DNA from: a virus
Reading direction: 5' to 3' (one strand)
DNA: 35,035 nucleotides
IMG/VR virus record: IMGVR_UViG_3300009495_000033
Coordinates: 1-35,035 of that record
Shown here: piece by piece, positions 8,209-33,665 of the stretch
Layout: each line of letters opens with the position of its first letter
Numbering within the stretch: position 1 is the first letter of the stretch
Translations under genes and position numbers: made by a program
Notes under the pieces: model-generated
Seen by the model: the letters and a program-made list of their open reading frames with translations, nothing else
Database searches by the model: none
Told to the model about the DNA's origin: nothing

Positions 8209-10489
8209 ATGTACCGTAACTCAGATCTAATGCATCGGTTGCAGGCATGTTCATGTTCATAACTGCGGTAGTAGGTGCGCTGTTATTTACTACGTTAGTA
8301 GATGGCGCGACAATCATTGCTTGTTGTCTTTGTGCGTCTGCAGCGAGTAACGCTTCTGCTCTTCTCTTATTGATTGCAAGAACCTCTTCGCCTCTCTGAG
8401 AACTCGCTATCATCTCTCTTGCACGTGCAAGATTCTTCTCACGATCTGCCTCAGACATACGAGAAAGTTTAGCAGCTTCTTCAGAACCGAACTTCTGAAT
8501 GTCCGCATCTTTCTTCGCTTGTTTCTGTTCGAAGTCCGCTAGTTGTTGTTCTTTTCTTGCGATGCTTTCTCTAAGTTGTTCTAACTGTTCTGACTGACCT
8601 TCCGCAGAATTGTCATACTCCATCGATGCTCTTTCATCTGCATCTGCGGATGCCATTTCTTCTTTAGACCACTTAAAGTATCCTTCACCACTTGCAAGTT
8701 TTTCCTTCATTCTTGCAAGTCTTTCTGATTCCTTCTCTTCAAAAGATTTAACAGGTCTCAGTTCTTCTTTTGTTTCATTCAACTTAGTTGTATCGCCAGT
8801 CTTGATTGCCTCAAGTTTTGCTTCATTCAAATCTTTGTTAGTGACGGTTAATTCTTTGAGTCCAGCAAGTTGCGCCTCTGTTGCATCTACGAACATCTGC
8901 GCCGCCTCGACATCGTATTCGTCCCCTGTTCCGTCTTCAAGTGATGACTGTGCATCCGCAAGATCTTTTTTATCTGCAACTAGTTGTTGTTCTAGTTCCT
9001 CTTTAGTCATGGTACCTTCTGGTGTTGATGCAGTATCAGATGCAACTGGTTCTGCACCCGCAGCAGCAGGAGGTGCAGTAGTACCCGCCCACTCATAAAC
9101 GGCATCGGGAACGAACTTCTCAAGGAACGATCCTCTCTCTGGTAACATACCAAGGATAAACTCTCTAAACTTGTTCTTGATATTAGCGACACCTTCACCT
9201 AGTTTGGCGAACATACCTTCATCGCCCGTGAAGAACCCGAACACACCATCAATCAATTTACCGAACATACCAGAAATACTCTCTCCGATAGAACCCATGA
9301 AATTGCCGATAGCTGCGCCTATCTTCTTGAATAGTCCGATCGGATCTGTCACTAGTTGTACAAAGAAGTCTGCGATTCCGAAGATCATGTTCTTTATACC
9401 ATCGATAAGTCCACTGAACAAACCAGAGAAACTGAATCCTGCCAACATGTTCTCGAAGTTCTCGAATCCTAGTTTACCAGCAATCCATCCGATACCATCT
9501 TTCAACATATCTAATGGCGCCATGATAACAGCGTTGATCGCGCCTTCGATGAATCCATAGAAACCATTGACGAACACTTTAAAGAAACTATCGCCTTTGG
9601 CCATAGACTCCTTACCTTCTTTAAACATATTCATGAAACCACCGACCAATCCAGTGATGATGGTTATAGGGAACGCAACTACACGACCAATGGTGGCGAA
9701 TACTTTGAAGAAACCTTTGAAGACATTTCCTAGACTACCTAGTGCCGTACCCGCAGCCTTTATACCTTTACCTACTTTAGAGAATACCGATCCGATACGA
9801 CCAAAGAATCCAGATACACTTGACACTCCCGTTCGGAGTAGACCGATTGATTTTCGGACAACCTTGATACGTCTCTTCAAATCCTTGACTATCGGATTTA
9901 ACAAGTTACCGATACGACCAAAGATACCAACGAATCCTTTTACTGGATTCATCATTCTACCCATAGCGCCACGGACTACTTTAGCATTACCCTTGAGACC
10001 CTCTGAGAAGGCGAGACGAATGTTCTTGAGTGTATTGACCAGTGGTCGGAAGAATAACTTAAACTGTTTGGACAGGTTCTTACCGAACTGAGTTATGGTT
10101 TTACCTAAGTTACTTGACGAGAATGCTTTCTTGAAAGACTTTAATGCTTTCATCAACGGTCTAGTAAACGCACTTATAAAACCCTTTACGAAACCAAGGG
10201 CTGCACCAGCGAGTCCCGCCAACATTCTTGCGATACCAAGTCCGCCACCAGAGTCCTTACTTTCCGGAGAACTACTACCACCACTGCCTGCTGGTGATAC
10301 GGTCTCTTCTTCGTCTTGACCTCTTTGACGATCGAGCGCCATCCCATCCAGCATGTCCCCAATAAGATTCTTAGTGGTTCGTGTGTTGAATGCAATTTCA
10401 CCTGAACGATCATTGATTTCCCCAAAAGTCTTCTCGTTAGAAGTTCTTAGTTTGTCGATCGCACCTTGAATGTTCGCCTGTTTTGCCAT
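8207..10489 (-). CDS. Candidate tail tape measure protein
   Basis: This 760-residue protein is placed directly after gp26 and the gp51-like frame, where tailed phages put the tape measure after its chaperones. The first 75 residues are polar. Residues about 85-480 alternate basic amphipathic helices with hydrophobic Gly/Phe/Ile segments (GFVKGFISAFTRPLMKALKS, FFKVFATIGRVVAFPITIITG). The last 280 are charged coiled coil rich in Gln, Glu and Ala. At about 1.5 angstroms per helical residue this would span roughly 110 nm, a normal tail length. T4 uses the unrelated-looking gp29 (about 590 residues), so the assignment rests on position, size and composition. The start has GTAAGAG upstream. Confidence 0.65.
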   Translation of the reverse strand: MAKQANIQGAIDKLRTSNEKTFGEINDRSGEIAFNTRTTKNLIGDMLDGMALDRQRGQDEEETVSPAGSGGSSSPESKDSGGGLGIARMLAGLAGAALGFVKGFISAFTRPLMKALKSFKKAFSSSNLGKTITQFGKNLSKQFKLFFRPLVNTLKNIRLAFSEGLKGNAKVVRGAMGRMMNPVKGFVGIFGRIGNLLNPIVKDLKRRIKVVRKSIGLLRTGVSSVSGFFGRIGSVFSKVGKGIKAAGTALGSLGNVFKGFFKVFATIGRVVAFPITIITGLVGGFMNMFKEGKESMAKGDSFFKVFVNGFYGFIEGAINAVIMAPLDMLKDGIGWIAGKLGFENFENMLAGFSFSGLFSGLIDGIKNMIFGIADFFVQLVTDPIGLFKKIGAAIGNFMGSIGESISGMFGKLIDGVFGFFTGDEGMFAKLGEGVANIKNKFREFILGMLPERGSFLEKFVPDAVYEWAGTTAPPAAAGAEPVASDTASTPEGTMTKEELEQQLVADKKDLADAQSSLEDGTGDEYDVEAAQMFVDATEAQLAGLKELTVTNKDLNEAKLEAIKTGDTTKLNETKEELRPVKSFEEKESERLARMKEKLASGEGYFKWSKEEMASADADERASMEYDNSAEGQSEQLEQLRESIARKEQQLADFEQKQAKKDADIQKFGSEEAAKLSRMSEADREKNLARAREMIASSQRGEEVLAINKRRAEALLAADAQRQQAMIVAPSTNVVNNSAPTTAVMNMNMPATDALDLSYGT

Positions 10490-10492
10490 CTC

Positions 10493-10690
10493 TTACTGCC
10501 CGTTTTGTCTATTTTGTTGTTCTATACGTTCATTCTCTTCTTTAATGTGTTCCAATAACATACTGACGTAGATCTCCCTCTCCCATGGCATCATCATGTC
10601 CAGTTCTGTTAAACTATAATGATGATGTTGCATCATTGCAAAATTCGTCTTATAATGATTCACAAGACTATCATGAGAAAGGTTTAGGAT
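10493..10690 (-). CDS. gp51: gp51-like extension, probably made by -1 frameshift from gp26
   Basis: From the slippery site at the end of gp26, the -1 frame is open for 65 residues to TAA at 10493-10495, three bases before the tape measure ATG. It reads ILNLSHDSLVNHYKTNFAMM, then QHHHYSLTELDMMMPWEREI, then a Glu/Gln-rich helix. The ELDMMMPWEREIY pattern is typical of small tail-assembly chaperones. The only starts in frame (GTG 10663, ATG 10636) have no Shine-Dalgarno sequence, so synthesis as a gp26 fusion is more likely. As a separate protein it would match what marine T4-like genomes call gp51, the baseplate hub assembly catalyst. Confidence 0.65.
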   Translation of the reverse strand: MLNLSHDSLVNHYKTNFAMMQHHHYSLTELDMMMPWEREIYVSMLLEHIKEENERIEQQNRQNGQ

Positions 10691-11400
10691 AAAAAATCCG
10701 ATATCCCTTTAAGTTCCATATCATTTTCGGTACCACAATTCAAACAAGTAAACTTCGCATTGTGTTTCATGGCTGGGAGATCACCGATGTACTGGGTAAC
10801 TCTCTCAAACTGTTCACTCGTCATCGATTCGATGAACTCGTATACTTCTTTTTTAGATACGTCTTTCGCATCTATTCGTTCTTCTTCTAGTCCGTTAGTA
10901 GTAATGATTGCGCTAACACTACTTACGACCATCGCTAATCCTAATTCCATCTGATCAGCGTTTAGATTACTATCCATCAATGAACCATATGGTGGATACC
11001 GCATCTCGATCGTTATGTCATCGGTCAGTTCAATCAGATTACTATCATCTGGGATATCAACACCAATCGTTGACAAGTCAACTGTGTACTCGTGTTGTGT
11101 CCCGCATTCTTTACACTTCAACATTACAGTTGATTTCTCACCGGCAGACTTAGAACGAATCTGAGTAAACATATACTCTACATCGAATGTTGCTAAGTCT
11201 CTGACCGACAACTTCTCTTGAACACACGCATCGATTGTCGAGACGATTGCTTTCAACGCTTGTTTCTGATCTCCAGATTCAAACGCCATCATCAACACTT
11301 TCTCTTCCTTCACAAGATACGGACGGAAACTCACTGTCTGTCCTGTTGAAGGCACCGCCAATTCATATAACGGTGCGGTGTTTAACTTGGGTAATGCCAT
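10684..11400 (-). CDS. gp26: Baseplate hub/tail assembly protein gp26
   Basis: This 238-residue protein (T4 gp26 about 208) belongs to the T4_baseplate family. It opens with VSFRPYLVKEEKVLMMAFESGD, has VEYMFTQIRSKSAGE at about 74-88, and carries two CxxC knuckles: C96-C99 (KCKECG) and C219-C222 (FTCLNCG). These probably bind one zinc. T4 gp26 is needed for the baseplate hub. Its position before the tape measure and the slippery site in its last codons make a chaperone role likely. AGGAG lies eight bases before the ATG at 11400. It is part of the leftward late block. Confidence 0.85.
   Translation of the reverse strand: MALPKLNTAPLYELAVPSTGQTVSFRPYLVKEEKVLMMAFESGDQKQALKAIVSTIDACVQEKLSVRDLATFDVEYMFTQIRSKSAGEKSTVMLKCKECGTQHEYTVDLSTIGVDIPDDSNLIELTDDITIEMRYPPYGSLMDSNLNADQMELGLAMVVSSVSAIITTNGLEEERIDAKDVSKKEVYEFIESMTSEQFERVTQYIGDLPAMKHNAKFTCLNCGTENDMELKGISDFLS
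10690..10696 (-). promoter_or_regulatory. Slippery heptamer T TTT TTA at the end of gp26
   Basis: Read leftward in the gp26 frame the sequence is GA[T TTT TTA] TCC TAA, the canonical X XXY YYZ signal identical to the retroviral U UUU UUA. A -1 slip here avoids the gp26 stop (10684-10686) and enters the 65-codon frame. No strong hairpin lies immediately downstream; an ATGATG-CAA-CATCAT hairpin lies about 55 bases on. Confidence 0.6.
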
Positions 11401-11444: not shown

Positions 11445-12143
11445 CTAACGTATATTTAGTCCACTAAAAAGTCGCTTCGCATCGTGAGCTTTACTGTACC
11501 AATCTTTGAACTTGAACGATATCGTAAGTTCCATAAGTGCGTCTGTTTGATCGTCACCCAACTGGATGTCACTTAATGTAGTCGGCATTGCATCAATTAA
11601 TCGACACGTGTATGCTGGTTCATCTGTTGTTCCCAAATCAAGATCAATCTCTCCTTGAGAGAACTTGAATGGGCCGATGTCTGGTAATCTGTTTCTGATA
11701 GTCGGTGACAGTTTGGTCAAGAACGGAATCTGTTTGTTGTACAACGGAATAGACGCACCTTTCTGTATAGTCTCGACAACGATATCTCTACAATAGTCTT
11801 TGTAGTAACCCACCTCACCACGTGTCCACATCGCAGACTGCCATGCCTCGAAGTAAGACTTGACGATATGATTAGATGGTACATGAAACACCATAGTTAC
11901 TTCACTCAAGGTCATTGCGTTAACAACGTCCATCTTGAATGTACCCATCTGTTTTTCGATTGTACCTATCTGACGACCCGGCATGGTGACTGCCTTACAC
12001 AATAAGTTTAGATCTTTGGTGTCATAACCATCGATAGGTGGTAACTGTACACGGAATAGGTTGGGACGTTGCACGCCACCACTCCTACCGATCAGAGTCT
12101 TGAGTTGCTCAATATTACCTATTTGGTTTACTTGGTTAGCCAT
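11445..12143 (-). CDS. gp54: Baseplate tail tube initiator, gp54-like (tail tube fold)
   Basis: This 232-residue protein (T4 gp54 320) has the tube-protein pattern GGVQRPNLFRVQLPPI at 18-33, then LCKAVTMPGRQIGTIEKQMGT, LSEVTMVFHVPSNHIVKSYFEAW, and closes with MELTISFKFKDWYS. This is shared by gp19, gp54 and gp48, which stack as rings at the base of the tail. The major tube protein gp19 is normally encoded with the sheath, so in this hub gene context the initiator gp54 is the better call. It overlaps the gene upstream by eight bases. Confidence 0.7.
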   Translation of the reverse strand: MANQVNQIGNIEQLKTLIGRSGGVQRPNLFRVQLPPIDGYDTKDLNLLCKAVTMPGRQIGTIEKQMGTFKMDVVNAMTLSEVTMVFHVPSNHIVKSYFEAWQSAMWTRGEVGYYKDYCRDIVVETIQKGASIPLYNKQIPFLTKLSPTIRNRLPDIGPFKFSQGEIDLDLGTTDEPAYTCRLIDAMPTTLSDIQLGDDQTDALMELTISFKFKDWYSKAHDAKRLFSGLNIR

Positions 12144-12755: not shown

Positions 12756-13244
12756 TTATTTTTTACGTTTCTTAAAAGGTTTTAATGGTTTTAATGGTTT
12801 AGTCGATTTAGGCATAATACCCATCGCAGTCAACTCCTTTTCAGTCCATATCTCAAATCCCCACCCCCGATCCTTTGCATACTCAGATGCAGCTTTCCAT
12901 TTGTTCTGGTTCTTGACATAGGTAAACGATTCTGTTAACATACGTTTAGTACGTCTACCTTTCATCTTGGGTAGTTGAGTTTCCTTGAAAGGTTTCACTT
13001 CGATCAGTTTAGTCGTACCATTCTTGTACACAATAACAAAGTCCATGAAGTAACGGTGATATTTTCTGTCCACTTCATATAGATAAGGTATGACAATCTC
13101 TTCCGATCCCCACTCTTTGATGTTAGAGTCGTTGTCACAATGGCGCATTACGTGTCTTTCCCACAATGATCGATACACTATGTTGGTCACGTCCCCCAAA
13201 TACTTCTCTGGGTTTTTTGGTTTAAATTTGCCAGAATATGCCAT
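12756..13244 (-). CDS. gp4: Head completion protein gp4 (nuclease-fold)
   Basis: This 162-residue protein aligns with T4 gp4 (150) almost end to end: MAYSGKFKPKNPEKYLGD, VYRSLWERHVMRHCD, KEWGSEEIVIPY, HRYFMDFVIVYKNGTTKLIEVKPFKETQ, NKWKAASEYAKDRGWGFEIWTEKEL. The D and E-x-K pair (YFMDF...LIEVKP) is the core of a restriction-endonuclease-like fold. gp4 finishes DNA-filled heads before tail joining. A lysine-rich tail of about 15 residues (KSTKPLKPLKPFKKRKK) is extra. AAGGA precedes the ATG. It is first in the leftward late block. Confidence 0.92.
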   Translation of the reverse strand: MAYSGKFKPKNPEKYLGDVTNIVYRSLWERHVMRHCDNDSNIKEWGSEEIVIPYLYEVDRKYHRYFMDFVIVYKNGTTKLIEVKPFKETQLPKMKGRRTKRMLTESFTYVKNQNKWKAASEYAKDRGWGFEIWTEKELTAMGIMPKSTKPLKPLKPFKKRKK

Positions 13245-15384: not shown

Positions 15385-16709
15385 AGAACGAGAACCAATC
15401 ACAATATAAGATAACGCAAGCGTTTATTACTGCCGAACAAACGGGTGGTGAGGAAGTGTCTAACCGTATCAATTTGAACTCGAACATTGTAGAATTGGTA
15501 TTCTTCGAGAGTCTAGAGAAACCTTATATCTCTGGACAAATCGCTATATCCGATGATCAGGGTTTCATTGATGGTATAGGATTTTCTGGAACCGAAAGAT
15601 TATTCATTGAAATGGCATCTGAAGATAAAACTTTATTGCCAGTAATGTCCAGATCATTTATGATGACTAGTATTGATCAAGTGATTAAAAGTAATGATGC
15701 TGGACAAGCCAGTATATATGTATTCACTATCATGGACGAACACGCAGTCGTTAGTAAGTCGAAGAAGATATCACGTACAGTCAAAGACACATTAGAGAAA
15801 GAGATCACTAAGATATGTGGTCATGATCTAAAGAAAGACGTGGACTTGTCCTATCTAGAACCGTCTATTCAAAGCAACATGAAGGTACTGATTCCTTACT
15901 TGCATCCACTCGAAGCATGTGATTGGTTGAGAGACAGAGCTACTACCACCAATGGTTGTCCGTTATTCTTGTATGCATCTATACACGACACTAATATTCG
16001 GTTGGGTAGTCTTGACAAGATGTTGGAACAAAATCCTTGGAATAGTGAATTACCGTATCTTTACTCACCATCAAACGTAAAGAAGACCGAAGATAAATCC
16101 CCGTTACACCGTACATTCCAAGTGCAGACTATGAGAACGGCCAAGATGCAGAACACATTTAAACAGATGATGTCTGGTGGTGTTGGTTCATCTTACAGAA
16201 ACACTAACCTTTCGACAGGACAAATTGGTTCTGAACACTTTAGTGTAAAAAAATTGCTTGACAAGATCTCAGATTCTGGTATAATAGAGGCTGGGAAACA
16301 AAACGTATATCCAGAAGAATTTAAACTAAATGATGAATACGTTGATGAATTAGATTCTAAAATATATCATCAAGTCACATCTACAGGCACATATGGTACC
16401 TTCAAGAGTTATCATGATGAAATGAAGCCAGGCAGTTTCAAGACCAAGGTTGGAAACATTGCTATAAGGAATATGTTATACAAGAATCAATTTGAATTAA
16501 CAGTTCCAGGCGCAGGGTTCATTGTTGCAAAGGCCAGTGTTGGTGATATAGTTAAGATTCAAACAATCTCCGATGATGGTGACCCACAGTCAACCGAACC
16601 TTTCGACTTATTACGAACAGGTGAGTTCCTAATCTATAACACAAGACACACATTCAAGAACACACGTCATGATGTTGTTATGACCGTGTGCAAGTTGGTG
16701 AGAGGATAA
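15381..16709 (+). CDS. gp27: Baseplate hub protein, gp27-like
   Basis: This 442-residue protein (T4 gp27 391) opens with hub-type strands (IVELVFFESLEKPYISGQIAISDDQGF; TERLFIEMASED). An oligomerisation/SH3-like part follows, then the motif LIPYLHPLEACDWLRDRATTTNGCPLFLYASIHDTNIRLGSLDKML, typical of gpD/gp27-type hubs, and finally a C-terminal beta domain (GAGFIVAKASVGDIVKIQTIS...FLIYNTRHTFKN). Gene order gp48-gp53-hub-gp5 supports it. The hub forms the trimeric ring that holds the needle. Sequence identity to T4 is low; function follows from fold pattern and position. Confidence 0.75.
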   Translation: MKNENQSQYKITQAFITAEQTGGEEVSNRINLNSNIVELVFFESLEKPYISGQIAISDDQGFIDGIGFSGTERLFIEMASEDKTLLPVMSRSFMMTSIDQVIKSNDAGQASIYVFTIMDEHAVVSKSKKISRTVKDTLEKEITKICGHDLKKDVDLSYLEPSIQSNMKVLIPYLHPLEACDWLRDRATTTNGCPLFLYASIHDTNIRLGSLDKMLEQNPWNSELPYLYSPSNVKKTEDKSPLHRTFQVQTMRTAKMQNTFKQMMSGGVGSSYRNTNLSTGQIGSEHFSVKKLLDKISDSGIIEAGKQNVYPEEFKLNDEYVDELDSKIYHQVTSTGTYGTFKSYHDEMKPGSFKTKVGNIAIRNMLYKNQFELTVPGAGFIVAKASVGDIVKIQTISDDGDPQSTEPFDLLRTGEFLIYNTRHTFKNTRHDVVMTVCKLVRG

Positions 16710-17596
16710 TGAAAGCAATCCAAACAGAATACTATGGTGACAATACTCGTTGGTTTATTGCAGATGTTGTTGACCACACACCCCCATATGGTTTAGAAGG
16801 TCGTGTCAAGATTCGTGTACACGGAGTACACAATCCATCTACAAGAGAGATACCGCAGAACGATCTACCTTGGGCCCAAGTAGTACTACCTACCACAGAG
16901 GCGGGTGTGTCTGGTTTAGGTAGTACACCTAGACTGTCTTCAGGTGCAACGGTATTCGGATTCTTTATGGACGGTGTTGCTTCACAGATACCACTAGTGT
17001 TAGGATCTATACCTAAGATAGAGTATCCGACACGTGTTCAACGTGATGTTCAGTTCAAGACGGTACAAGAGAGAATCTCACAAGACGTGGTATTCTTTGA
17101 ACAACAAATAGGTGTTGTCGATGCGGTAAAGGTCGAGAACGACAATGTCGGTCGAGTCTATGGTAATACAATGCAGTCTCGTCAGTTAGAGGGAGTCAAG
17201 TACTTCCTTAGTGCTGGTTACACGTTGAAACAATCTGTCGGTATTATGGCAGGACTTATTTTCAAGTCAAGACTTAACCACACCGGAGAAGAGACTGCGG
17301 GTGAAGATAATCCTCTAGGTATTGCGGGATGGGAAAACGAACGTAAACTATTACTCAAGAACTTTAGTAACGATTGGGCGAAATATGCGACTCAATTGGT
17401 CTTCACTAAATTTGAACTAAATAGTAGTCAAGCGGCCGCAAACATTCGTTTACGTAAAACGGATACTAACGAAAAAGGTCTAAAGAACAATTGTCAACGA
17501 GTCTTTGCAAAGTATTATCTTGGTGTAAAGAAAGAGAGTGACTTCGAAAGTGTAGAGAGACTCTGCATTGGTCTTCAGGAACTAATAGGTGAATAA
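16709..17596 (+). CDS. gp5: gp5-like hub needle: OB domain plus degenerate tail lysozyme
   Basis: I chose ATG 16709 (TAATG, GAGAGG upstream); an earlier GTG lacks a site. Residues 1-110 form the gp5/VgrG OB domain (FIADVVDHTPPYGLEGRVKIRVHGVHNP, LPWAQVVLPTTEAGVSG, GATVFGFFMDGVASQIPLVLGSI). Residues about 160-295 match the phage tail lysozyme (Phage_lysozyme2) pattern: FLSAGYTLKQSVGIMAGL, GIAGWENERKLLL, QLVFTKFELN. The catalytic Glu expected after MAGL (phi29 gp13 MQSES) is K186 here (IFKSR), so hydrolase activity is doubtful. T4's C-terminal beta-helix is missing and is supplied by the gene at 19500. Confidence 0.8.
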   Translation: MKAIQTEYYGDNTRWFIADVVDHTPPYGLEGRVKIRVHGVHNPSTREIPQNDLPWAQVVLPTTEAGVSGLGSTPRLSSGATVFGFFMDGVASQIPLVLGSIPKIEYPTRVQRDVQFKTVQERISQDVVFFEQQIGVVDAVKVENDNVGRVYGNTMQSRQLEGVKYFLSAGYTLKQSVGIMAGLIFKSRLNHTGEETAGEDNPLGIAGWENERKLLLKNFSNDWAKYATQLVFTKFELNSSQAAANIRLRKTDTNEKGLKNNCQRVFAKYYLGVKKESDFESVERLCIGLQELIGE

Positions 17597-19503
17597 TGCC
17601 TTTAAATAAAAGTCAACTTAATGCTAGATTAGCAGACAACCAAGCTGGTTCGAGTATTGGTGATAATCTCGATGCAACTGCAAAAGCGTTAACCGAAAAT
17701 ACGTTCGCAAACAATGCGACACTATTGGGTAGTGAAACGGGTGCGGTTTTCGGTGGTATTACTAGTATGGAGTCTAAGATCGATAACGCCGGTCAGACCG
17801 CCATGGGTGACGCTGCGTGTTCTTTTGGTGATCAGGTAACAGGATTATCCGGTGTCGCAGATCCCGCATCTTCTCTGATGACCCTGTCTGTTCCTGATCT
17901 CACAGTAACAGTGGGTGCGGACTCCGGTGCGGAAACTACTATAACCGAAGGCGTCCAAGAAGAACAATCTGTATCTGACGTGGTTGTTCAGTTAACCGGA
18001 CTAGGATCACCTGTTGCTAAACTAGAAGTGGAGACACTAGGTGCATCATCTCTAGACGCAATTAGTGCAACTGCATCCGATGTTGAAGGTAAGTCTTCTG
18101 CATTGAAGTCAAAGATCCAAGGGGTCGCGAGTGAAGTAAAGGCTGCATCTGGAACAGGTGGGGGTGCGTCTGGTGGACTGGGTGCGATTACCGATACCAT
18201 AAAGAAGGCAGAAGGTATGGTCGCAGATATTACCGCAGAGGTATCTTCCATTCAATCATTGAACCCTGCCGCAGACCCATTGAGTAATGTTAAGAACGAT
18301 ATTGGTAGTGGCACTACCGATTTACAGAATAATTTAAACTCCATTAGTGCGAGTGCGAGTGATATCGGTGCCGCGATCACTAGTGGAACCAATGCACCGC
18401 TCCAAGGATTAGAAAAGAATCAAGGTGCATTGCAAGACTTCTTCAATAAGTCTCCGGTTAAGACTGGTCTTGGCATGTTACAGGATATCGCAGAGGACAT
18501 TACCAACGCTGCGACTAGCCTAGTGCGAGGTGTTACCAGTAACGCAAACCTTGGATTAAGTAAAGTCACGGAAATTGTTTCTTCTGCATTGGATGGTACT
18601 TTAGAAGGTGTTGCGAAGGCGACACAATCAACAATCAGAGAAGATAAAACACTCAGTCCTAAAATGAAGGCTGTTATCGGAACGATACCCGAAGGTAAGA
18701 CCAACGATGAGTTTGTTAATGAGGTCAAAGTAAAGGCGAAGGCCGCAGGTATCAGTGATGCAGAGATCGAATCGACACAGAAACGTGTCTTCGCTGCTGA
18801 GGCAGATTTCTCTGCATTAGACACCACAATTTCTGGTTCACTTATAACTACCTCAGAATCGTTTGTAGTTGAAGACTTTGATCTCACTGAGACACTTGCT
18901 AAGTTCGATGGTCAGAGTAGTGCGTTTGAATCGTACACTTATATTGATTCTAAGGAAGAACTGGGTACAGAATTTAGACTTATCAACCGTCCTATTACTG
19001 GAATGGTTGTACATGCGTCAGACACTTATACTAACCAGAACATTGGCGCAGAAGAGATACATGTTGACCATACTAGTTCAGGTGAAGATGGTATCCAGTA
19101 CCACTTAATTATTCGTAGAGACGGTCGTCTACAAAGAGCTAGACCAATGGATAGAAAAACCTCTAATGTGGTAAATGGTCACACGGATAAGGTGATCGAG
19201 ATATGTTTGGTCGGTGGTTTAAACTGTTCGACTGGTTGCGATAATCCAGATCAGTATCGTTCCTCACAGTCATTCACTCGTGAACAGATGACAACCTTTG
19301 AATCAGTATGTGAAGCATTCTATAGAAGATATCATGGTGGACAGATATTTGGTCATAACGAAATACAACCTTTGGTGACTGACCCATACTTTGATGTAAC
19401 GCAATATGTAGAAACGGTATTCCGCAAGAAGTCTGTATACGAAGACTTATCGGTAGACACGTCTTTAACTCCATCTGAATTGATAACGAAGAAACCACAA
19501 TGA
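17596..19503 (+). CDS. Baseplate hub-associated N-acetylmuramoyl-L-alanine amidase
   Basis: In this 635-residue protein, residues 1-440 are Ala/Ser/Thr-rich with coiled segments (LKSKIQGVASEVKAAS, ADITAEVSSIQSL). Residues about 465-610 form an Amidase_2/T7 lysozyme-like domain: ITGMVVHASDTYTNQ (H473), IQYHLIIRRDGRLQRARP (Y502), VIEICLVGG, and FGHNEIQPLVTDPYFD (H587, D596). H473, H587 and D596 fit the AmpD-type zinc triad. The position usually occupied by a catalytic Lys two residues before the Asp is V594. It probably cuts peptidoglycan during tail penetration. The gene lies between the two halves of gp5 and overlaps both neighbours. Confidence 0.85.
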   Translation: MPLNKSQLNARLADNQAGSSIGDNLDATAKALTENTFANNATLLGSETGAVFGGITSMESKIDNAGQTAMGDAACSFGDQVTGLSGVADPASSLMTLSVPDLTVTVGADSGAETTITEGVQEEQSVSDVVVQLTGLGSPVAKLEVETLGASSLDAISATASDVEGKSSALKSKIQGVASEVKAASGTGGGASGGLGAITDTIKKAEGMVADITAEVSSIQSLNPAADPLSNVKNDIGSGTTDLQNNLNSISASASDIGAAITSGTNAPLQGLEKNQGALQDFFNKSPVKTGLGMLQDIAEDITNAATSLVRGVTSNANLGLSKVTEIVSSALDGTLEGVAKATQSTIREDKTLSPKMKAVIGTIPEGKTNDEFVNEVKVKAKAAGISDAEIESTQKRVFAAEADFSALDTTISGSLITTSESFVVEDFDLTETLAKFDGQSSAFESYTYIDSKEELGTEFRLINRPITGMVVHASDTYTNQNIGAEEIHVDHTSSGEDGIQYHLIIRRDGRLQRARPMDRKTSNVVNGHTDKVIEICLVGGLNCSTGCDNPDQYRSSQSFTREQMTTFESVCEAFYRRYHGGQIFGHNEIQPLVTDPYFDVTQYVETVFRKKSVYEDLSVDTSLTPSELITKKPQ

Positions 19504-20942
19504 CAACAGAAACAGATAAAAATTCGTTAGGAAAGAATACCGCCAAGGACAAAACACTTGGTGTACCACAGGAAGGATTTCAAGATCCTACTGGTGAGTT
19601 TCCTAGAACTAACTATCACTATACGTCTAGTATAAACCAAGCTGCCCGTGGGTTTCAGGTAAATGAACTCTATGTTGGGGGTGGTGACTATAAAGTATCA
19701 CTTAATATAGAAGATCAACAACCATCACAGTATCCGTTTAATCAGGTCATGGAGACCGCATCTGGTCATGTGATTGAACATGATGATACGCCAGGCGGAG
19801 AACGTATTCTTATCAAACACCGTAAGGGTGGTGGTATCGAAATGCGAGCGGACGGTTCTATTATTATATCATCCCCGAACAATAAAGTCGAGGTGACCGG
19901 AGGAGACAATACGGTCATCGTAGAGGGTGATGCGGAGATGGTCTATAAAGGTAATCTGAACCAGACGGTTACGGGTGACTGGAATATGGACGTGGGTGGT
20001 AATCATAATCTTAATATACATGGTAACTCAAGGCAACATGTTTTACTAAACAAACGTACCGAAGTATCGAAGAACACCGAATATACAACTAAGGGATCTG
20101 CGTCATACAAGACCGTGGAGAATAGGGCGGAGATTACTCTGGGCAATAACTCTAACTGGACTAAGGGTTACTACAAGAACCATGTTCAGGGAGAACTCCA
20201 GTTGATGACCGATAATCGTTTGACTACGACTGCGGGATCAGAATACATTGCTACATCACCTGTTATGTCTATCACAGGTTCTGAATTATCCGTCATGGGT
20301 ATGAAAGGTGTGATTGGGGGTGAACAAGTAGAGATGACTTCTCCCGTTTACATGGGGCCAATGGGTGCGGTTCCTTTTGCATCTGGTGCTGCGTTCTATG
20401 GATCATTCCACGGACAGGCAACAGAGGCGATTAAGTCATACAACGCAAACGTAGCAGACAAGGCAAAGACTGCGTTCCAAGCACAGAAGGCGGGAACCGC
20501 TGGTGCATTAGGGGCATCTGGATCTGCAACTGATCCTACAGTTAAGAAAGCAGAGGAAGGACAAGAGACTCCAACACCTAAGAAACCAGTACCACTTGCA
20601 GATGCGATTGGTGCAATGATGACAATGGGTGACTTTGCGGTACGTGCGATATCTGTTGATGCGTCTGACTCACTCAAGAATAAGATTCTTCTACGTGACG
20701 ATTACGAGGGACTGTTCGAAAAGGTTCCGACAACCCAAGAACTTAGGTCTAAGATTCGCGACACTGCTAACCGTTCTTTGATTGGAAACAAGATGGTAGG
20801 TGAAGGTAGACTTAATTCTGACTATGATAACACTAGTCCACCGAAGATAGGACGTGCAGTTTCAGCTAAACCGTCTTCGAGATTTGGTATGGTGCCTATA
20901 GGTAATTCAATTGAGAATAGAGGAAAGAGGTTTAAAGGATGA
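19500..20942 (+). CDS. gp5: Cell-puncturing needle, gp5 C-terminal beta-helix-like
   Basis: In this 480-residue protein, residues about 75-290 form a repetitive beta-helix of the gp5/VgrG type. It starts with GHVIEHDDTPGGERILIKHRKGGGIEMRADGSIIISSPNNKVEVTGGDNTVIVEGDAEMVYKG, followed by NLNQTVTGDWNMDVGGNHNLNIHGN. Together with the OB protein at 16709 it makes up a gp5 split into two genes. The C-terminal 180 residues are Ala/Lys-rich (NVADKAKTAFQAQKAG), ending in a basic tail. T4 has OB, lysozyme and beta-helix in one chain with maturation cleavage; here separate genes give the same parts. ATGA overlap with the amidase gene. Confidence 0.8.
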   Translation: MTTETDKNSLGKNTAKDKTLGVPQEGFQDPTGEFPRTNYHYTSSINQAARGFQVNELYVGGGDYKVSLNIEDQQPSQYPFNQVMETASGHVIEHDDTPGGERILIKHRKGGGIEMRADGSIIISSPNNKVEVTGGDNTVIVEGDAEMVYKGNLNQTVTGDWNMDVGGNHNLNIHGNSRQHVLLNKRTEVSKNTEYTTKGSASYKTVENRAEITLGNNSNWTKGYYKNHVQGELQLMTDNRLTTTAGSEYIATSPVMSITGSELSVMGMKGVIGGEQVEMTSPVYMGPMGAVPFASGAAFYGSFHGQATEAIKSYNANVADKAKTAFQAQKAGTAGALGASGSATDPTVKKAEEGQETPTPKKPVPLADAIGAMMTMGDFAVRAISVDASDSLKNKILLRDDYEGLFEKVPTTQELRSKIRDTANRSLIGNKMVGEGRLNSDYDNTSPPKIGRAVSAKPSSRFGMVPIGNSIENRGKRFKG

Positions 20943-27404: not shown

Positions 27405-30400
27405 ATGCCGACTATTTACACAAAATCAAGCTTTCCATCCACGTACAAGGACGACTATGATAAGACTAAAAATTATCATCGTGTGTTGTTTAATAGTGGT
27501 AAGGCGCTTCAAGCCCGTGAACTTACTCAGATGCAGACTATTATTCAGTCTGAAATCTCTCAACTTGGGGGTAACATCTTTGAAGAAGGTGCTGCGATCA
27601 CGCCAGGATCTTTCAAGGTAGATAATACTCTTGAATTTATCAAGATAAACCCATTAACACCATTCCCCTCAGATCCATCATTGTTGGAAGGTGTTGAGTT
27701 TTCGGTAAGTAACCTAAACCCTACAATTAAATTCCGTGTCATTCAGACTATCGCAGCAGTAAACGGTGACCCCGATACATTGTATGTCGAATATACGTCT
27801 GATTCAAACACTGGTGCCGTAGCTACTAGAGTTGGTTCTGGTAGTACCATTACAAGTACTACAGGTGGATTCACTTTCGAAGTACAGTCCATTAATACTT
27901 CTAATAACCCAGCAGTAGGTTTAGCATCAGAGATATCGGTTGACGAAGGCCACTTCTTTGTTCAGGGACGTGTTGTATATTGTCCACCGCAGAGTCTGAT
28001 ATTCGGTAAGTATAGTACTGACCAATCTAGTAGATTCGGATTCGTTATTGATCAAGAGATTGTTACTGTCGATGATGACATAACTTTATACGACAATCAA
28101 GGGGAGACCCCAAACCTAACATCGCCTGGCGCTGACCGTTATCGTATTACACTAACTCTTGCGGATGGTCGTGTCACAACAGTTGCCGAGAACTTCATTC
28201 AGGTAATCGAAGTTTTGGGCGGAAGTATTGTTAGTGCGGTAACTCCTAACTCTGGTTTCAAGTCTATCAAAGAAGAGATGGCGACACGTACTCGTGAAAC
28301 TGCGGGTGACTACGTTAAACGTTATTTCCGTGCAGCGTTCGAACCCAACAATCTCACCACAATGAAGTTGAAGGTCACGCCAGGAACTGCATATGTTCAG
28401 GGTTATCGTATCAACAAGGACGCTGAGTCCACAATCATTGTTAAGAAACCCCTACAGACATTATCTAGAAACAACGATTCGATTACTGTCAACTATGGTA
28501 ACTACTTCATAGTAGATTCACCTACTAGTCAGGGTATGGCTGACTTCGAGAATGTTCAGGAATTAAAACTCTTTGATGCAGTAGGTGGTAGTGGTAACAT
28601 TATTGGTACTACACGTGTACGTGCGGTTAGTCCAGTAAGCGACAGTCGTCTAAACTTATATGTTTTCAATACAAGAATCTCCGATGCAACCAAGAGTGTT
28701 CGTGACATACGTTCAATCGGTACTGGTAGTGGTGCTGGGGATGTATTTTATAACCTAATTCTTTCTGCTGGTCTAGGTACAAATAGAAACGCACGTGCTG
28801 CATTACAACAATCAGACAAACGTCCACTGTTATTTGATACGCCTATCTCACGTCCTAAAATCTTTAGTGACATCTCACTTACTGTTGCTAAACGTAAGGT
28901 TGTCACGTCAGATGGATCTGGTAACGTAACTATCAATGCTTCTAGTGGTAACGCACTAGACAATGCAGGATCGTGGATAATATCGAATGCAACTGACGCA
29001 CAAATTCAAGATGCAATTATTTCGTTTGGTGCGTCTTCTACCAGTATTAGTGGCCTAGCTAATAATCAGGTTGTCACTATACAATATTTCGAGAAAATAT
29101 CTAACGCTCAACAACGAGTTAAAACTCTAACGCCCGTAACCGATACGTTTAATTTAGAGGAAGATAGTGCCGGTGTCCAATCAATAAACTTGAGAAAGAC
29201 TGACATCTATAGTATCGATGGTGTGAGAGAAGATAGTGCCGGTGGTAAAAATATTCTAAACCTATTCCGTGTAGATTACGGTCAACGTGATACTCACTAT
29301 GATTTAGGTAGACTACTCTATAATGGATCAGGACTTGATTCTGCGGGACAAAATGTTTATGTTTCCTTCAAACACTTCCAGCATGCCAATGGTGATGGTG
29401 AGTTCTTTGGAGTAAACTCATATGATGGTACCGTTGATTACTCAAACATTCCGGTACATAGAACTGAGAAAGGTCGTTTGGTTAACCTACGAGACGTTTT
29501 AGATTTCCGTCCTTCGGTTGACTCTAACGGCGACTTCGGTTCTAGTTCTCTAATATTTGGTCTACCCGCAAGCAATAATCTTGTTAACGCTGACGCAGAA
29601 TACTACATGCCACGTCTAGACAAACTAGTATTGTCTAAGAGTGGTGAGTTACGTTACATCCAAGGTGTGTCATCAATGATGCCTAAGTTCCCATCTACTC
29701 CGGTAGATTGTATTGATCTCTATAAGATCGAACTTGGTGCAAACACATTACACACTAAAGATCTTAAAACCACTATCATTCCAAGACGTGGATACACGAT
29801 GGAAGATATCGGTAAACTAGACAAACGTGTAGATCGTCTAGAACAGGCAACCACGCTTTCTTTGTTAGAACTTAATGCGACTAACGAAAGATTGTTTGAC
29901 TCCGATGGTAACGAACGTATCCACACTGGTTTCTTCGTAGATAACTTTAAGAACCAGAAGTTCATGGATACCAAGAGTATAGAACACCGTGCGTCACATG
30001 ATCCCACAAAGGGAATCATCCGTCCTGGCTATACTTGTGATACTGTCGAGATGTTATTCGATTCGAGTCATAGTACTAGTAATCGTATGGTTCAGAAAGG
30101 TGATAACCTTTATTTGGATCACACTGAAGTACAATACTTCGCACAGAACATGGCATCACAGACAATTAATGTCAACCCATTCCATGTTGAAAAGACTTAT
30201 GGCGACTTAGTACTGTCTCCATCTAAAGATACTTGGAAAGCGTTCAAACAAGATGCGCCACTTGTCATTGATGGTGGTACAGAGTTTGACGCATCTCAAG
30301 CACTTCTTTGGAATGAACAAGAATATGCATGGGGTGGTACTAATGTAAACGACCTACGTGTCGGGATGACAACTGATCCATTGGTTTCGGTCACTTCAAA

Positions 30401-33400
30401 CACAACACAGACAGGTGAGTCTACCCGTCAGACAGGTGAAGATGTTTCGGTCGATCATGGTGATTGGGTAGAAACAGGTTCAACGTCAACTAGTGAGGTG
30501 ATCGGTGGCGGCGTTGAAGTTCTTTCACGAGACCATAACCAAGTTGCAGGCGACTTTGTTGTCGCAACTACAGTATCAGAAGGTGCGTATACGGGTCAAA
30601 CGATTACTAAACTTGAACCACCGTCTGGGTCTACTTTCGCGAATGGAAGTTCTGCGATTGAGGCAAAGGTCAAGGATGAAATCGTCATTACTGCTACCCA
30701 AGCTTGGGGTAGAGTTTTCCGATGTGGTGCTCACAAAGATATCGCAGACCTGTACAAACAGAATGCTGGCGGTGGTGCTTGGACACTAATTACTAACTTC
30801 ACTACATCAATAAGTAGTGGACAGAAGGTAAAACTGGTAGGTAAAAAGACTGGTTCGTGTCACTTATACTTCAAAAACAATTCTGGTACTGGTCAAGGTG
30901 CATCTACGAACAGTAACGATGGTGTACACACTGTAACATTTGGTCTTGGTGGCGTAGTTACTTCAACTACTACTGACGTATACCAAACAGTTACAGATAC
31001 CGTAACAACTTCACACCGTGATGTTAGTACAGTTGAGACTGTTACCAATACTAGTTACGAAAGAACTAATACTGTAACTACTGAAACAGAGACTGAGACT
31101 ACTGCGGAATTTACTACCACTACCGATACCACATCTACTGTGAACCGTATCGCTAGTGAAAGTGTTCTTACTGAGGTTGTCGATAATCGTGAATTACAAA
31201 TCATTCACGTACCGTTTATGCGTTCACGTAAAGTATCGTTCAAGGCGACTAACTTACGTCCGAACACTCGTTACTTCCCATTCTTCAATAATACGGATGT
31301 GAGAGATTTCTGTAAACCGAAGACATTCTACAAGTCATCGACTTATCCCGACCCCGATTACGATATTGCGGATGACGGATCTAACATGGTTACTCAGATT
31401 GACATTCCGCCTGGCCTAGGACACTCCGAAGGTTCAGGAGAACTGATCTCTAACTCTAACGGTATCATTGAAGGTGAATTTGAGATTCCAAACTTAGTGA
31501 ATCCTCCAATGAGATTCAAGAGTGGTTCTGCGGTATTCTCTTTATTTGATATCAGTAAACCAGACGTAAGTCACGCACTCTCATACTGTGCTCAGTTCTA
31601 CACATCTGCTGGTGTTATCGAGAACTTGACTGGTGACTATACTATTACTAACACTCGTGTGTTAGAGATTGTTGGTGGTCAGACTACAACTACTACTAGT
31701 GGTGTTCATACTGAAACAACTACCTCTACAGATACTGTTGTTACTTCTGAGTCTGAAATTGCGGGTACTACCGAAACTACACAAACTCAGGTTTACGGTG
31801 ACGTAGAAACAAACACCGCAATTGTGGGTGATACCACAGTATTGGTTTCGTCTAATACTGGACAGGAATACTCACAGGCACCGGCAGGATCTGCGGCCGC
31901 TGGTTCGGGTACTGGTACTACTAATCCATCTACCACATTTACTGTTGATGGTAAAGCGTATGATCCAAACGACCCAGTTGTTGCCGGTGTTTCGAGTCAA
32001 CCGCAGTATCAAAAGAATGCCATGAAACACAACAAGGACGAAGATCCGACTGCACAGTCGTTCGAAGTTCTTGATCCGAATGGTGTCTACATAACTCGAT
32101 TACGTTTGTACTTTGCAGAGAAACCTGGCGCCAATGATGAACAACACACAGTTAGTGTAGCGATTACTCAAGCACCTAATGGTTATCCTGATCGTACACG
32201 AAGAGTGCCTGGCTCGTTTAAAGAAGCGGTTCCGTCACAAGTTCGTACCGTACCAGATGAATCTATTGGTAGTATGGTTGCGAACGGTACTGACTTCATC
32301 TTTGATGAACCAGTATTCCTACAGGGTGGTGGTTCAAACTATGCGATTATCGTTCGATCACTTTCTATGAAGTACAAAATGTACATCTCTGAAGTTGAAC
32401 AGTTCCAGTTAGGTTCTACCGAAAGACGTATCATGAAACAACCTACTCTTGGTTCATTATTCGTGTCTCAGAACACAGACGTTTGGGAACCACGTGGTAA
32501 ACAGGATCTGGCATATGTATTGTATCGTGCTGACTTCCAGACTTCTGGTACTGCATTCTTACATAACCGTAATCTAAGACCACAGAACTTAGTTGCCAAT
32601 CCTATTATGACCACAGATGGTAGTAATATCGTCACTGTGAAGTTAGGGCCTAGAGACACACACGGTATGCGCCGAGGTGATAAGACCCGACTCTTTGGTC
32701 TAGACCCCGATACTCGATATAACGGTATCTTGGGTTCATCTATCATTAACGGTGCTGGCGCAACCTTCAGTCGTGTTGTTACTTCGGTAGATGCCAATTC
32801 AATATCATTCGCTACTGATTCAGATGCGACTGCATCGGGTCGAACTGGTGGCGGTAAGGTAAGAATGTTACAACACTTACCATACGAAACGATCAGACCA
32901 GACTTTGACTTGACACAACCAGAGACAACGAACGCTACATTGTCATTCAAGATGACCACTAACTCTACTCTGTGTGATTCAGCTGACGGTCGATTTGAAG
33001 TGGATAACAACTTCCAAGTATTACCTAACAAGAGTAATACAACGTTGAATAGTCCATTTGCGATCTACAATCAGTTCGAAGAAACATCAGAAACTTCTCT
33101 AGTTGCGAACGAAGGTCACTCGTTGACATCAAATGTTATTTTCACAACAACAGATCCACGTGTAAGTCCGGTCTTGGATTTAGAATCTACAGATCTGAAG
33201 TTGACCAGTAACATTATTGATGCATCGGATCAACGTGTCGTTAACACATACTTGAATGAGAAGTATTCTAATAGAGTGACATTTGTCGATGAGATATTCC
33301 CAGGCAAGGGTACTGCGGCCGCGAAACACGTTTGTATCCCAATCAAACTCGCAGAAACTGCTGTTGGTTTACGGGTAATGATGAGTGTTAACCGACCACC

Positions 33401-33665
33401 GGAGACAGGTTTTGTTCTATATTACAGAACCGCATCTAAAGATGTGAACATCAAAGGATTGCATTGGAAACCCGTACCGACACAGAATGAGATGCCTGCG
33501 GATCAGAACAGAAACACTTTCCGTGAGTATGGATACTTAATCGGTGGACTTACTGGTGAACTAGAACCGTTTGATCAGTTCCAGTTGAAGATGGTGTTTG
33601 GTAGTACTAATGCTGCTAAAGTTCCGTTAATCAAAGACTTGAGGTGTATCGCACTTGCAGACTAA
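27405..33665 (+). CDS. Very large DUF4815 tail/baseplate structural protein
   Basis: This 2086-residue protein opens YHRVLFNSGKALQARELTQMQTIIQSEISQLGGNIFEEGAAITPG, the DUF4815 signature found in large virion proteins of marine T4-like phages. About residues 600-950 carry further beta-rich fibre-like domains. Residues 1185-1245 and 1425-1480 are extreme Thr/Glu/Val stretches that look like flexible or stalk segments. The C-terminal 500 residues repeat strand-rich modules and end DQFQLKMVFGSTNAAKVPLIKDLRCIALAD. Its place after gp8, where T4 has gp9 to gp12, suggests a peripheral baseplate protein holding the fibres. It overlaps the next gene by 11 bases. Confidence 0.8.
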   Translation: MPTIYTKSSFPSTYKDDYDKTKNYHRVLFNSGKALQARELTQMQTIIQSEISQLGGNIFEEGAAITPGSFKVDNTLEFIKINPLTPFPSDPSLLEGVEFSVSNLNPTIKFRVIQTIAAVNGDPDTLYVEYTSDSNTGAVATRVGSGSTITSTTGGFTFEVQSINTSNNPAVGLASEISVDEGHFFVQGRVVYCPPQSLIFGKYSTDQSSRFGFVIDQEIVTVDDDITLYDNQGETPNLTSPGADRYRITLTLADGRVTTVAENFIQVIEVLGGSIVSAVTPNSGFKSIKEEMATRTRETAGDYVKRYFRAAFEPNNLTTMKLKVTPGTAYVQGYRINKDAESTIIVKKPLQTLSRNNDSITVNYGNYFIVDSPTSQGMADFENVQELKLFDAVGGSGNIIGTTRVRAVSPVSDSRLNLYVFNTRISDATKSVRDIRSIGTGSGAGDVFYNLILSAGLGTNRNARAALQQSDKRPLLFDTPISRPKIFSDISLTVAKRKVVTSDGSGNVTINASSGNALDNAGSWIISNATDAQIQDAIISFGASSTSISGLANNQVVTIQYFEKISNAQQRVKTLTPVTDTFNLEEDSAGVQSINLRKTDIYSIDGVREDSAGGKNILNLFRVDYGQRDTHYDLGRLLYNGSGLDSAGQNVYVSFKHFQHANGDGEFFGVNSYDGTVDYSNIPVHRTEKGRLVNLRDVLDFRPSVDSNGDFGSSSLIFGLPASNNLVNADAEYYMPRLDKLVLSKSGELRYIQGVSSMMPKFPSTPVDCIDLYKIELGANTLHTKDLKTTIIPRRGYTMEDIGKLDKRVDRLEQATTLSLLELNATNERLFDSDGNERIHTGFFVDNFKNQKFMDTKSIEHRASHDPTKGIIRPGYTCDTVEMLFDSSHSTSNRMVQKGDNLYLDHTEVQYFAQNMASQTINVNPFHVEKTYGDLVLSPSKDTWKAFKQDAPLVIDGGTEFDASQALLWNEQEYAWGGTNVNDLRVGMTTDPLVSVTSNTTQTGESTRQTGEDVSVDHGDWVETGSTSTSEVIGGGVEVLSRDHNQVAGDFVVATTVSEGAYTGQTITKLEPPSGSTFANGSSAIEAKVKDEIVITATQAWGRVFRCGAHKDIADLYKQNAGGGAWTLITNFTTSISSGQKVKLVGKKTGSCHLYFKNNSGTGQGASTNSNDGVHTVTFGLGGVVTSTTTDVYQTVTDTVTTSHRDVSTVETVTNTSYERTNTVTTETETETTAEFTTTTDTTSTVNRIASESVLTEVVDNRELQIIHVPFMRSRKVSFKATNLRPNTRYFPFFNNTDVRDFCKPKTFYKSSTYPDPDYDIADDGSNMVTQIDIPPGLGHSEGSGELISNSNGIIEGEFEIPNLVNPPMRFKSGSAVFSLFDISKPDVSHALSYCAQFYTSAGVIENLTGDYTITNTRVLEIVGGQTTTTTSGVHTETTTSTDTVVTSESEIAGTTETTQTQVYGDVETNTAIVGDTTVLVSSNTGQEYSQAPAGSAAAGSGTGTTNPSTTFTVDGKAYDPNDPVVAGVSSQPQYQKNAMKHNKDEDPTAQSFEVLDPNGVYITRLRLYFAEKPGANDEQHTVSVAITQAPNGYPDRTRRVPGSFKEAVPSQVRTVPDESIGSMVANGTDFIFDEPVFLQGGGSNYAIIVRSLSMKYKMYISEVEQFQLGSTERRIMKQPTLGSLFVSQNTDVWEPRGKQDLAYVLYRADFQTSGTAFLHNRNLRPQNLVANPIMTTDGSNIVTVKLGPRDTHGMRRGDKTRLFGLDPDTRYNGILGSSIINGAGATFSRVVTSVDANSISFATDSDATASGRTGGGKVRMLQHLPYETIRPDFDLTQPETTNATLSFKMTTNSTLCDSADGRFEVDNNFQVLPNKSNTTLNSPFAIYNQFEETSETSLVANEGHSLTSNVIFTTTDPRVSPVLDLESTDLKLTSNIIDASDQRVVNTYLNEKYSNRVTFVDEIFPGKGTAAAKHVCIPIKLAETAVGLRVMMSVNRPPETGFVLYYRTASKDVNIKGLHWKPVPTQNEMPADQNRNTFREYGYLIGGLTGELEPFDQFQLKMVFGSTNAAKVPLIKDLRCIALAD

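Follow-up and report, generated by a model that had tools for sequence, protein, structure and literature searches.

The gp26 gene of an uncultivated marine T4-like phage very probably directs the synthesis of two tail assembly chaperones, a short form (TAC-N, gp26 itself) and a long form (TAC-NC) produced by a programmed -1 slip of the ribosome close to the gp26 stop codon. We put the probability of this reading at about 0.92. The phage is represented by the window, which is the whole 35,035-nucleotide stretch of DNA that was analysed (IMG/VR virus record IMGVR_UViG_3300009495_000033). That slipping occurs in this phage, and the ratio in which the two forms are made, we infer from the sequence. 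On this reading the mis-annotated "hub" gene pair of marine T4-like phages would become one recoded chaperone gene.

The gp26 locus

The window carries T4-like neighbour genes for the tail tube, a DNA end protector, head closure, the tail tube cap and the baseplate. The order of genes on the minus strand is tail tube, gp26, extension and tape measure (Table 1), which places gp26 and its extension in the position of a tail chaperone. The source virus record spans the 35-kb window only, so a second gp26 copy may lie elsewhere in this virus; in complete relatives the gene is present as a single copy. A nucleotide search of isolate phages with the locus gave no match.

Table 1. Features of the gp26 locus (window positions)
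Feature	Position	Strand	Basis or remark
Tail tube gene	12143..11445	minus-strand order	upstream of gp26
gp26 / TAC-N (short form), 238 aa + stop	10684..11400	minus	Pfam T4_baseplate PF12322, phrog_150
SD-like AAAGGG, putative stimulator	10705..10710	minus	15-10 nt upstream of slip site; anti-SD pairing peak
Slippery heptamer T_TTT_TTA	10690..10696	minus	in-phase T_TTT_TTN in 239/239 frameshift-type loci
Zero-frame stop TAA of gp26	10684..10686	minus	sequence
-1 frame extension (TAC C-domain), 65 aa + stop, LSHD...MPWEREIY	10493..10690	minus	phrog_634 7.5e-28
5' arm of downstream stem, CCUUUCUCAUG, putative stimulator	10672..10682	minus	7 nt after heptamer; fold z, covariation
3' arm of downstream stem, CAUGGGAGAGG, codes PWER	10577..10587	minus	fold z, covariation, synonymous null
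Tape measure protein gene, 760 aa	8207..10489	minus	phrog_58 3.4e-13

The gp26 product matches PF12322 (T4_baseplate, the gp26/gp51 family) at 1.5e-55 over positions 3-218 of 219, with 188.7 bits against a family cut-off of 24.5 bits, and phrog_150 at 6.4e-59. On the minus strand its gene ends TCG GAT TTT TTA TCC TAA. The -1 frame reads ILNLSHDSLVNHYKTNF...MPWEREIY... and has its stop at 10495..10493; 3 nt (GAG) separate this from the tape measure ATG at 10489. The initial annotation had described a 65-residue open frame stopping three bases before the tape measure, and this was exact. The family matched by the -1 segment, phrog_634, is named "baseplate hub assembly catalyst". The same segment also matches the C-terminal columns 235-281 (the last 47) of the gp26 family phrog_150, which must therefore include proteins with both parts in one chain.

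Conservation of the slippery site and of the -1 frame

The heptamer stands in the X_XXY_YYZ phase needed for tandem -1 slippage, and a single sense codon (TCC) separates it from the stop; the initial annotation had correctly given both the coordinates and the phase of a canonical heptamer near the end of gp26. For comparison 259 loci were gathered by IMG/VR scans with five queries and from annotated phage records, and the gp26 frame was located in them by profile. Usable were 239 loci, the window counted and the T4-type phages left out, and these formed 48 clusters at 60% gp26 identity. Every one of the 239 has an in-phase T_TTT_TTN, mostly 0-1 codons ahead of the stop, and it is only in the T4-type phages, which possess two in-frame genes instead, that the slippery site is absent. 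Under a null in which the gp26 residues are fixed and synonymous codons are drawn by local usage, the log10 probability of all 48 clusters keeping the heptamer is -29.6, a value that takes the clusters as independent, which is an approximation, and whose significance is inflated by kinship among the sequences.

Spot checks in distant groups revealed T_TTT_TTN together with a -1 extension in Caulobacter phage Cr30, Stenotrophomonas phage BUCT608, Rhizobium phage IG49, Pseudomonas phage Astolliot, Vibrio phage Bakedbeans, Aeromonas phage avDM6 (Straboviridae) and Acinetobacter phage nACB2 (Ackermannviridae). Two cases count against the rule: in the Ackermannviridae phiA8-29 and Serratia 3M no canonical heptamer accompanies the open -1 frame. 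In E. coli, U_UUU_UUA shifts less readily than A_AAA_AAG (PMC5009743), which also counts against the site.

Judging by its pattern of variation, the -1 frame is under coding selection from the slip site onward, ahead of any start codon. The clusters share conserved residues at positions 4-17 after the slip (LSHD.L.N.Y..NF), and the entropy at codon positions 1/2/3 (codons 4-18) is 0.75/0.68/1.47, variation being mostly at the third position. The in-frame starts available in the window are GTG (codon 10) and ATG (codons 19, 20 and 32-34), none of which, as had been claimed, has a recognisable ribosome binding site. In 36 of the 48 clusters codons 1-14 include no in-frame ATG, and in 0 of 48 does the first ATG have an SD-like 4-mer at normal spacing ahead of it.

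These data bear on the possibility that the C-domain is a separate small protein ("gp51" or "hub assembly catalyst") that arises through internal initiation or through stop-start coupling, with the heptamer incidental. A separate short ORF is what databases annotate, and in 6 of the 48 clusters, including Rhizobium phage P10VF and Vibrio phage VH7D, an ATG overlaps the stop of gp26 (TGATG/TAATG), and there coupled re-initiation could add a free C-domain. Against this, the window has no such ATG, and even the lineages that do have one retain the heptamer. LSHD..NF is conserved although most clusters offer no early ATG, no first ATG is preceded by an SD-like site, and in T4 the domain is part of one chain with a gp26 copy. 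We regard a separate protein as highly improbable; the sequence comparisons support translation of the -1 frame from the slip site and not from an internal start. The initial annotation had suggested aligning the junction across relatives. Done on these loci, this gave a conserved heptamer, an in-frame overlap and residues conserved 5' of any AUG, while the opposite pattern, a conserved AUG and binding site with no slippery sequence, occurred in 0 of 239 loci.

If the ribosome slips at this heptamer, the junction peptide proposed at the outset, ...SDFF-ILNLSHD, is indeed expected, but not as the only product: ...SDFL-ILNLSHD is expected as well, since the A-site tRNA may be the UUA Leu tRNA. 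The HIV site provides a precedent for such a mixed junction on U_UUU_UUA (PMC5009743).

In none of the inspected isolate records is gp26 joined to the extension in one annotated product. In the annotated records "gp51" is begun at an arbitrary ATG or omitted, and the fusion is missed. Phages of Rhizobium, Sinorhizobium, Vibrio, Caulobacter and Stenotrophomonas (loci L084, L085, L086, L087, L088, L262 and L263) carry the heptamer together with an ATG overlapping the gp26 stop, and could make both the fusion and a free C-domain. In the SP-15-like Listeria phage LIS04 (L267, 2471-3420) a PWER-like extension (..AVFERTELYS..) follows a gp26-like gene in the +1 frame, with GAG TTT TTT AGT upstream of it; a -2 or +1 frameshift in place of -1 is possible there.

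RNA signals around the site

Candidate stimulatory elements are present as sequence features on both sides of the heptamer, namely an SD-like peak, a downstream structure and covariation in its stem. Upstream, anti-SD pairing peaks at offset -15 from the heptamer, with a mean of -6.1 kcal/mol over the 48 clusters vs a gene mean of -0.15 (sd 1.09), and the peak exceeds the synonymous-codon null (Wilcoxon 3e-6). The best anti-SD 8-mer of the window itself has -5.1 kcal/mol and lies at -14. This SD-like signal is partly imposed by the conserved L-E/K-G residues.

Downstream, the 120-nt fold of the window has a z of -6.13 vs dinucleotide shuffles. It contains an 11-bp stem which encloses an 84-nt region; one arm consists of the LSH(D) codons and the other of the PWER codons. 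Over the 48 clusters, the minimum free energy of the 120 nt after the heptamer has a mean z of -2.61 vs synonymous recodings; by the same measure control windows gave -0.6 to -0.9 in gp26 and -1.28 in the tape measure gene. The stem was also scored in 38 sequences picked blind to pairing (one IMG/VR search set and the isolate C48C1): 92.1% of its cells are paired vs 45-73% when the arms are slid, and 0 of 500 shuffles equalled this. Covariation is provided by one wobble-wobble pair that switches between UA (14), CG (13) and UG (5).

The stem is lineage-specific, as only 26 of the 48 clusters (z -3.4) form at least 9 of its 11 pairs; the other 22 have a z of -1.5, yet no common consensus structure was found among them. 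RNAalifold, run on the whole alignment, recovers the outer stem only, with almost no energy, and we therefore do not claim conservation of the inner hairpins of the window fold. We looked for an association between the loss of SH and that of the W codon, and it was too weak to claim.

The SD-like element and the stem would presumably stimulate frameshifting. The chances are about even that a three-part RNA element (SD-like sequence, T_TTT_TTN and the long-range 11-bp LSHD/PWER stem) drives the frameshift in this lineage, in which case part of the conservation of the LSHD/PWER peptide would be RNA conservation. This would fit the loss of both motifs (NPDE, PAER) in the in-frame T4-type gp51 proteins. 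The E. coli dnaX signal has the same layout of SD-like sequence upstream, slippery heptamer and downstream stem; it differs in belonging to another gene, and here the stem is a long-range one, with 84 nt separating its arms, and is found in some lineages only.

RNA polymerase might instead slip on the T run, so that a mixed mRNA, and not a ribosomal frameshift, would account for the fusion. There is a T run in every case, reaching 8 Ts at 18 of 179 distinct sites, but at 154 of the 179 it is only 6 T, which is short for transcriptional slippage, and both the SD-like element and the downstream stem would be expected to act on ribosomes; we find this explanation hardly credible. A sequencing or assembly error that splits a normal in-frame long gene, leaving the long form as the only product, is refuted in practice: homopolymer runs are error-prone and T4 gp51 is an in-frame long form, but the same frame relation recurs across 239 loci as well as in cultured phages whose genomes were sequenced independently, the stop codons vary (TAA/TAG/TGA), and past the site it is the -1 frame whose third codon positions carry the noise.

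One gene or two, and the probable chaperone role

The window locus shares with T4 the family PF12322, a short and long pair, and an extension that is homologous to, and aligns with, T4 gp51 residues 207-249. T4 and its close relatives differ in possessing two divergent paralogous genes with no slippery site, in place of one gene with a -1 shift. PF12322 is matched over its whole length by both T4 gp26 and T4 gp51. In phrog_150 T4 gp51 occupies columns 13-280 vs 14-235 for T4 gp26, the extension being found in gp51 only. Since both proteins match the family and only gp51 continues, T4 encodes the short and long forms in two divergent genes. By these profile matches gp26 and gp51 are paralogues, gp51 being a whole second gp26 copy plus the extension. 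A whole-record search found two PF12322 copies in T4 and one apiece in 13 frameshift-type records, of which 8 come from isolates and 5 are large contigs. The outcome is a clean swap between two routes to the same protein pair: a frameshift within a single gene, or a pair of paralogues.

T4-type gp26 still ends with Phe-Phe or a related aromatic/hydrophobic pair at the slip position, in non-slippery codons such as GAG TTC TTT GAG. In the tree, which is unrooted and has long branches, supported branches separate the frameshift genes, gp26 and gp51 from one another. The simplest reading is that duplication replaced frameshifting in the ancestor of the T4-type phages; we infer this direction from the broad spread of frameshifting and from the broken slip site in T4-type gp26. 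The initial annotation had recast gp26 and gp51 as one chaperone pair, a view which the conservation tests support. It had also called the -1 segment alone gp51, and this does not hold: T4 gp51 is a gp26-like protein plus that segment, so it is the frameshift product as a whole that corresponds to T4 gp51. A weak match of T4 gp26 (L083, 5806-6429) to phrog_1140, the family of the hub protein gp28 (9e-4), may point to one more paralogue.

An AlphaFold model of the window gp26 (pLDDT 93) argues with moderate confidence for an HK97-like TAC-N fold in its N-domain. Above Z 5 there are just two matches to solved structures, 3fgx (Z 8.5) and 2ob9 (Z 7.3), the latter being the HK97 tail assembly chaperone, with 85 of 107 residues covered; the next unrelated row has 3.2. 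The Foldseek match of the model had an E of about 1 and a prob of 0.75, and phmmer searches of the PDB with gp26 and gp51 gave no solved relative, weak zinc-ribbon matches aside. For the extension of an in-frame gp51, short helices are predicted at moderate confidence. The protein in 3fgx is rbstp2171, an uncharacterised protein of Bacillus stearothermophilus; since its fit to the gp26 N-domain is about as good as that of the HK97 chaperone, it may itself be a prophage tail chaperone.

As in lambda gpG/gpGT, short and -1 frameshift-extended forms would be encoded upstream of the tape measure, and the initial comparison with lambda is borne out in gene position, in the -1 extension and in the predicted HK97-chaperone-like N-domain. 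At 238 aa, the window gp26 is larger than gpG and has a second domain with two CxxC pairs. The slip site of lambda, G_GGA_AAG, is unlike the poly-T site here.

We propose that most ribosomes would translate gp26 and end at the TAA. A minority, slowed by the upstream SD-like element and by the RNA stem that starts 7 nt downstream, would move back by one base on T_TTT_TTA and read on in the -1 frame, giving a gp26-extension fusion which would be the whole-length counterpart of T4 gp51. Lambda gpG/gpGT is the model for the roles of short and long chaperones (PMC5009743). By analogy with it, many short copies and few long ones would coat the tape measure encoded next, the extra C-domain of the long form would recruit tube subunits, and neither form would stay in the virion; the suggested binding partners (tape measure and tube) and the suggested absence from the virion both derive from this analogy. 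In a T4 review, gp26 and gp51 are listed among the hub assembly chaperones; gp51 is described there as essential, of "unknown function" and missing from the virion (PMC3004832). The puzzle of T4 gp51 is now testable, with the protein considered as the long form of a tail chaperone.

G-T frameshifting was described in 2016 as conserved in long-tailed phages "except T4" (PMC5009743). The TAC of Vandenendeviridae/Andersonviridae (phage Adele, PMC12846349) likewise has a short T-rich -1 slip motif at the 3' end of TAC-N and a short mis-annotated -1 ORF, with the tape measure next; this is another phage group with a GTTTTT motif, and the likeness rests on layout. According to PRFect (PMC10885494), Vladimirov, Gautam & Davidson (2022; Virology 566:9-15) found one short gene and one longer fusion gene in T4-like phages, and according to PMC12846349 the same study reports that the TAC-N genes of T4-like phages contain poly-T signals for -1 frameshifting. 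As the study is cited there, the recasting of gp26/gp51 as chaperones is not new: the chaperone identity appears to be published, and the frameshift has, in principle, very probably already been described. As far as can be seen, what is added here is the window as an uncultivated case, the mapping of the RNA elements and the one-gene/two-gene count.

Elsewhere in the window, the gp5-like hub/lysozyme family phrog_430 is split, its columns 14-109 and 332-592 falling in two ORFs (16688-17596 and 19500-20942) with an amidase-domain ORF (17596-19503) between them. The gp4-like head closure protein (12756-13244) matches a Pfam TnsA-like endonuclease domain at 9.6e-20, and a 2086-aa protein (27405-33665) adjoining the baseplate wedge genes matches phrog_358 (unknown function) at 4e-298.
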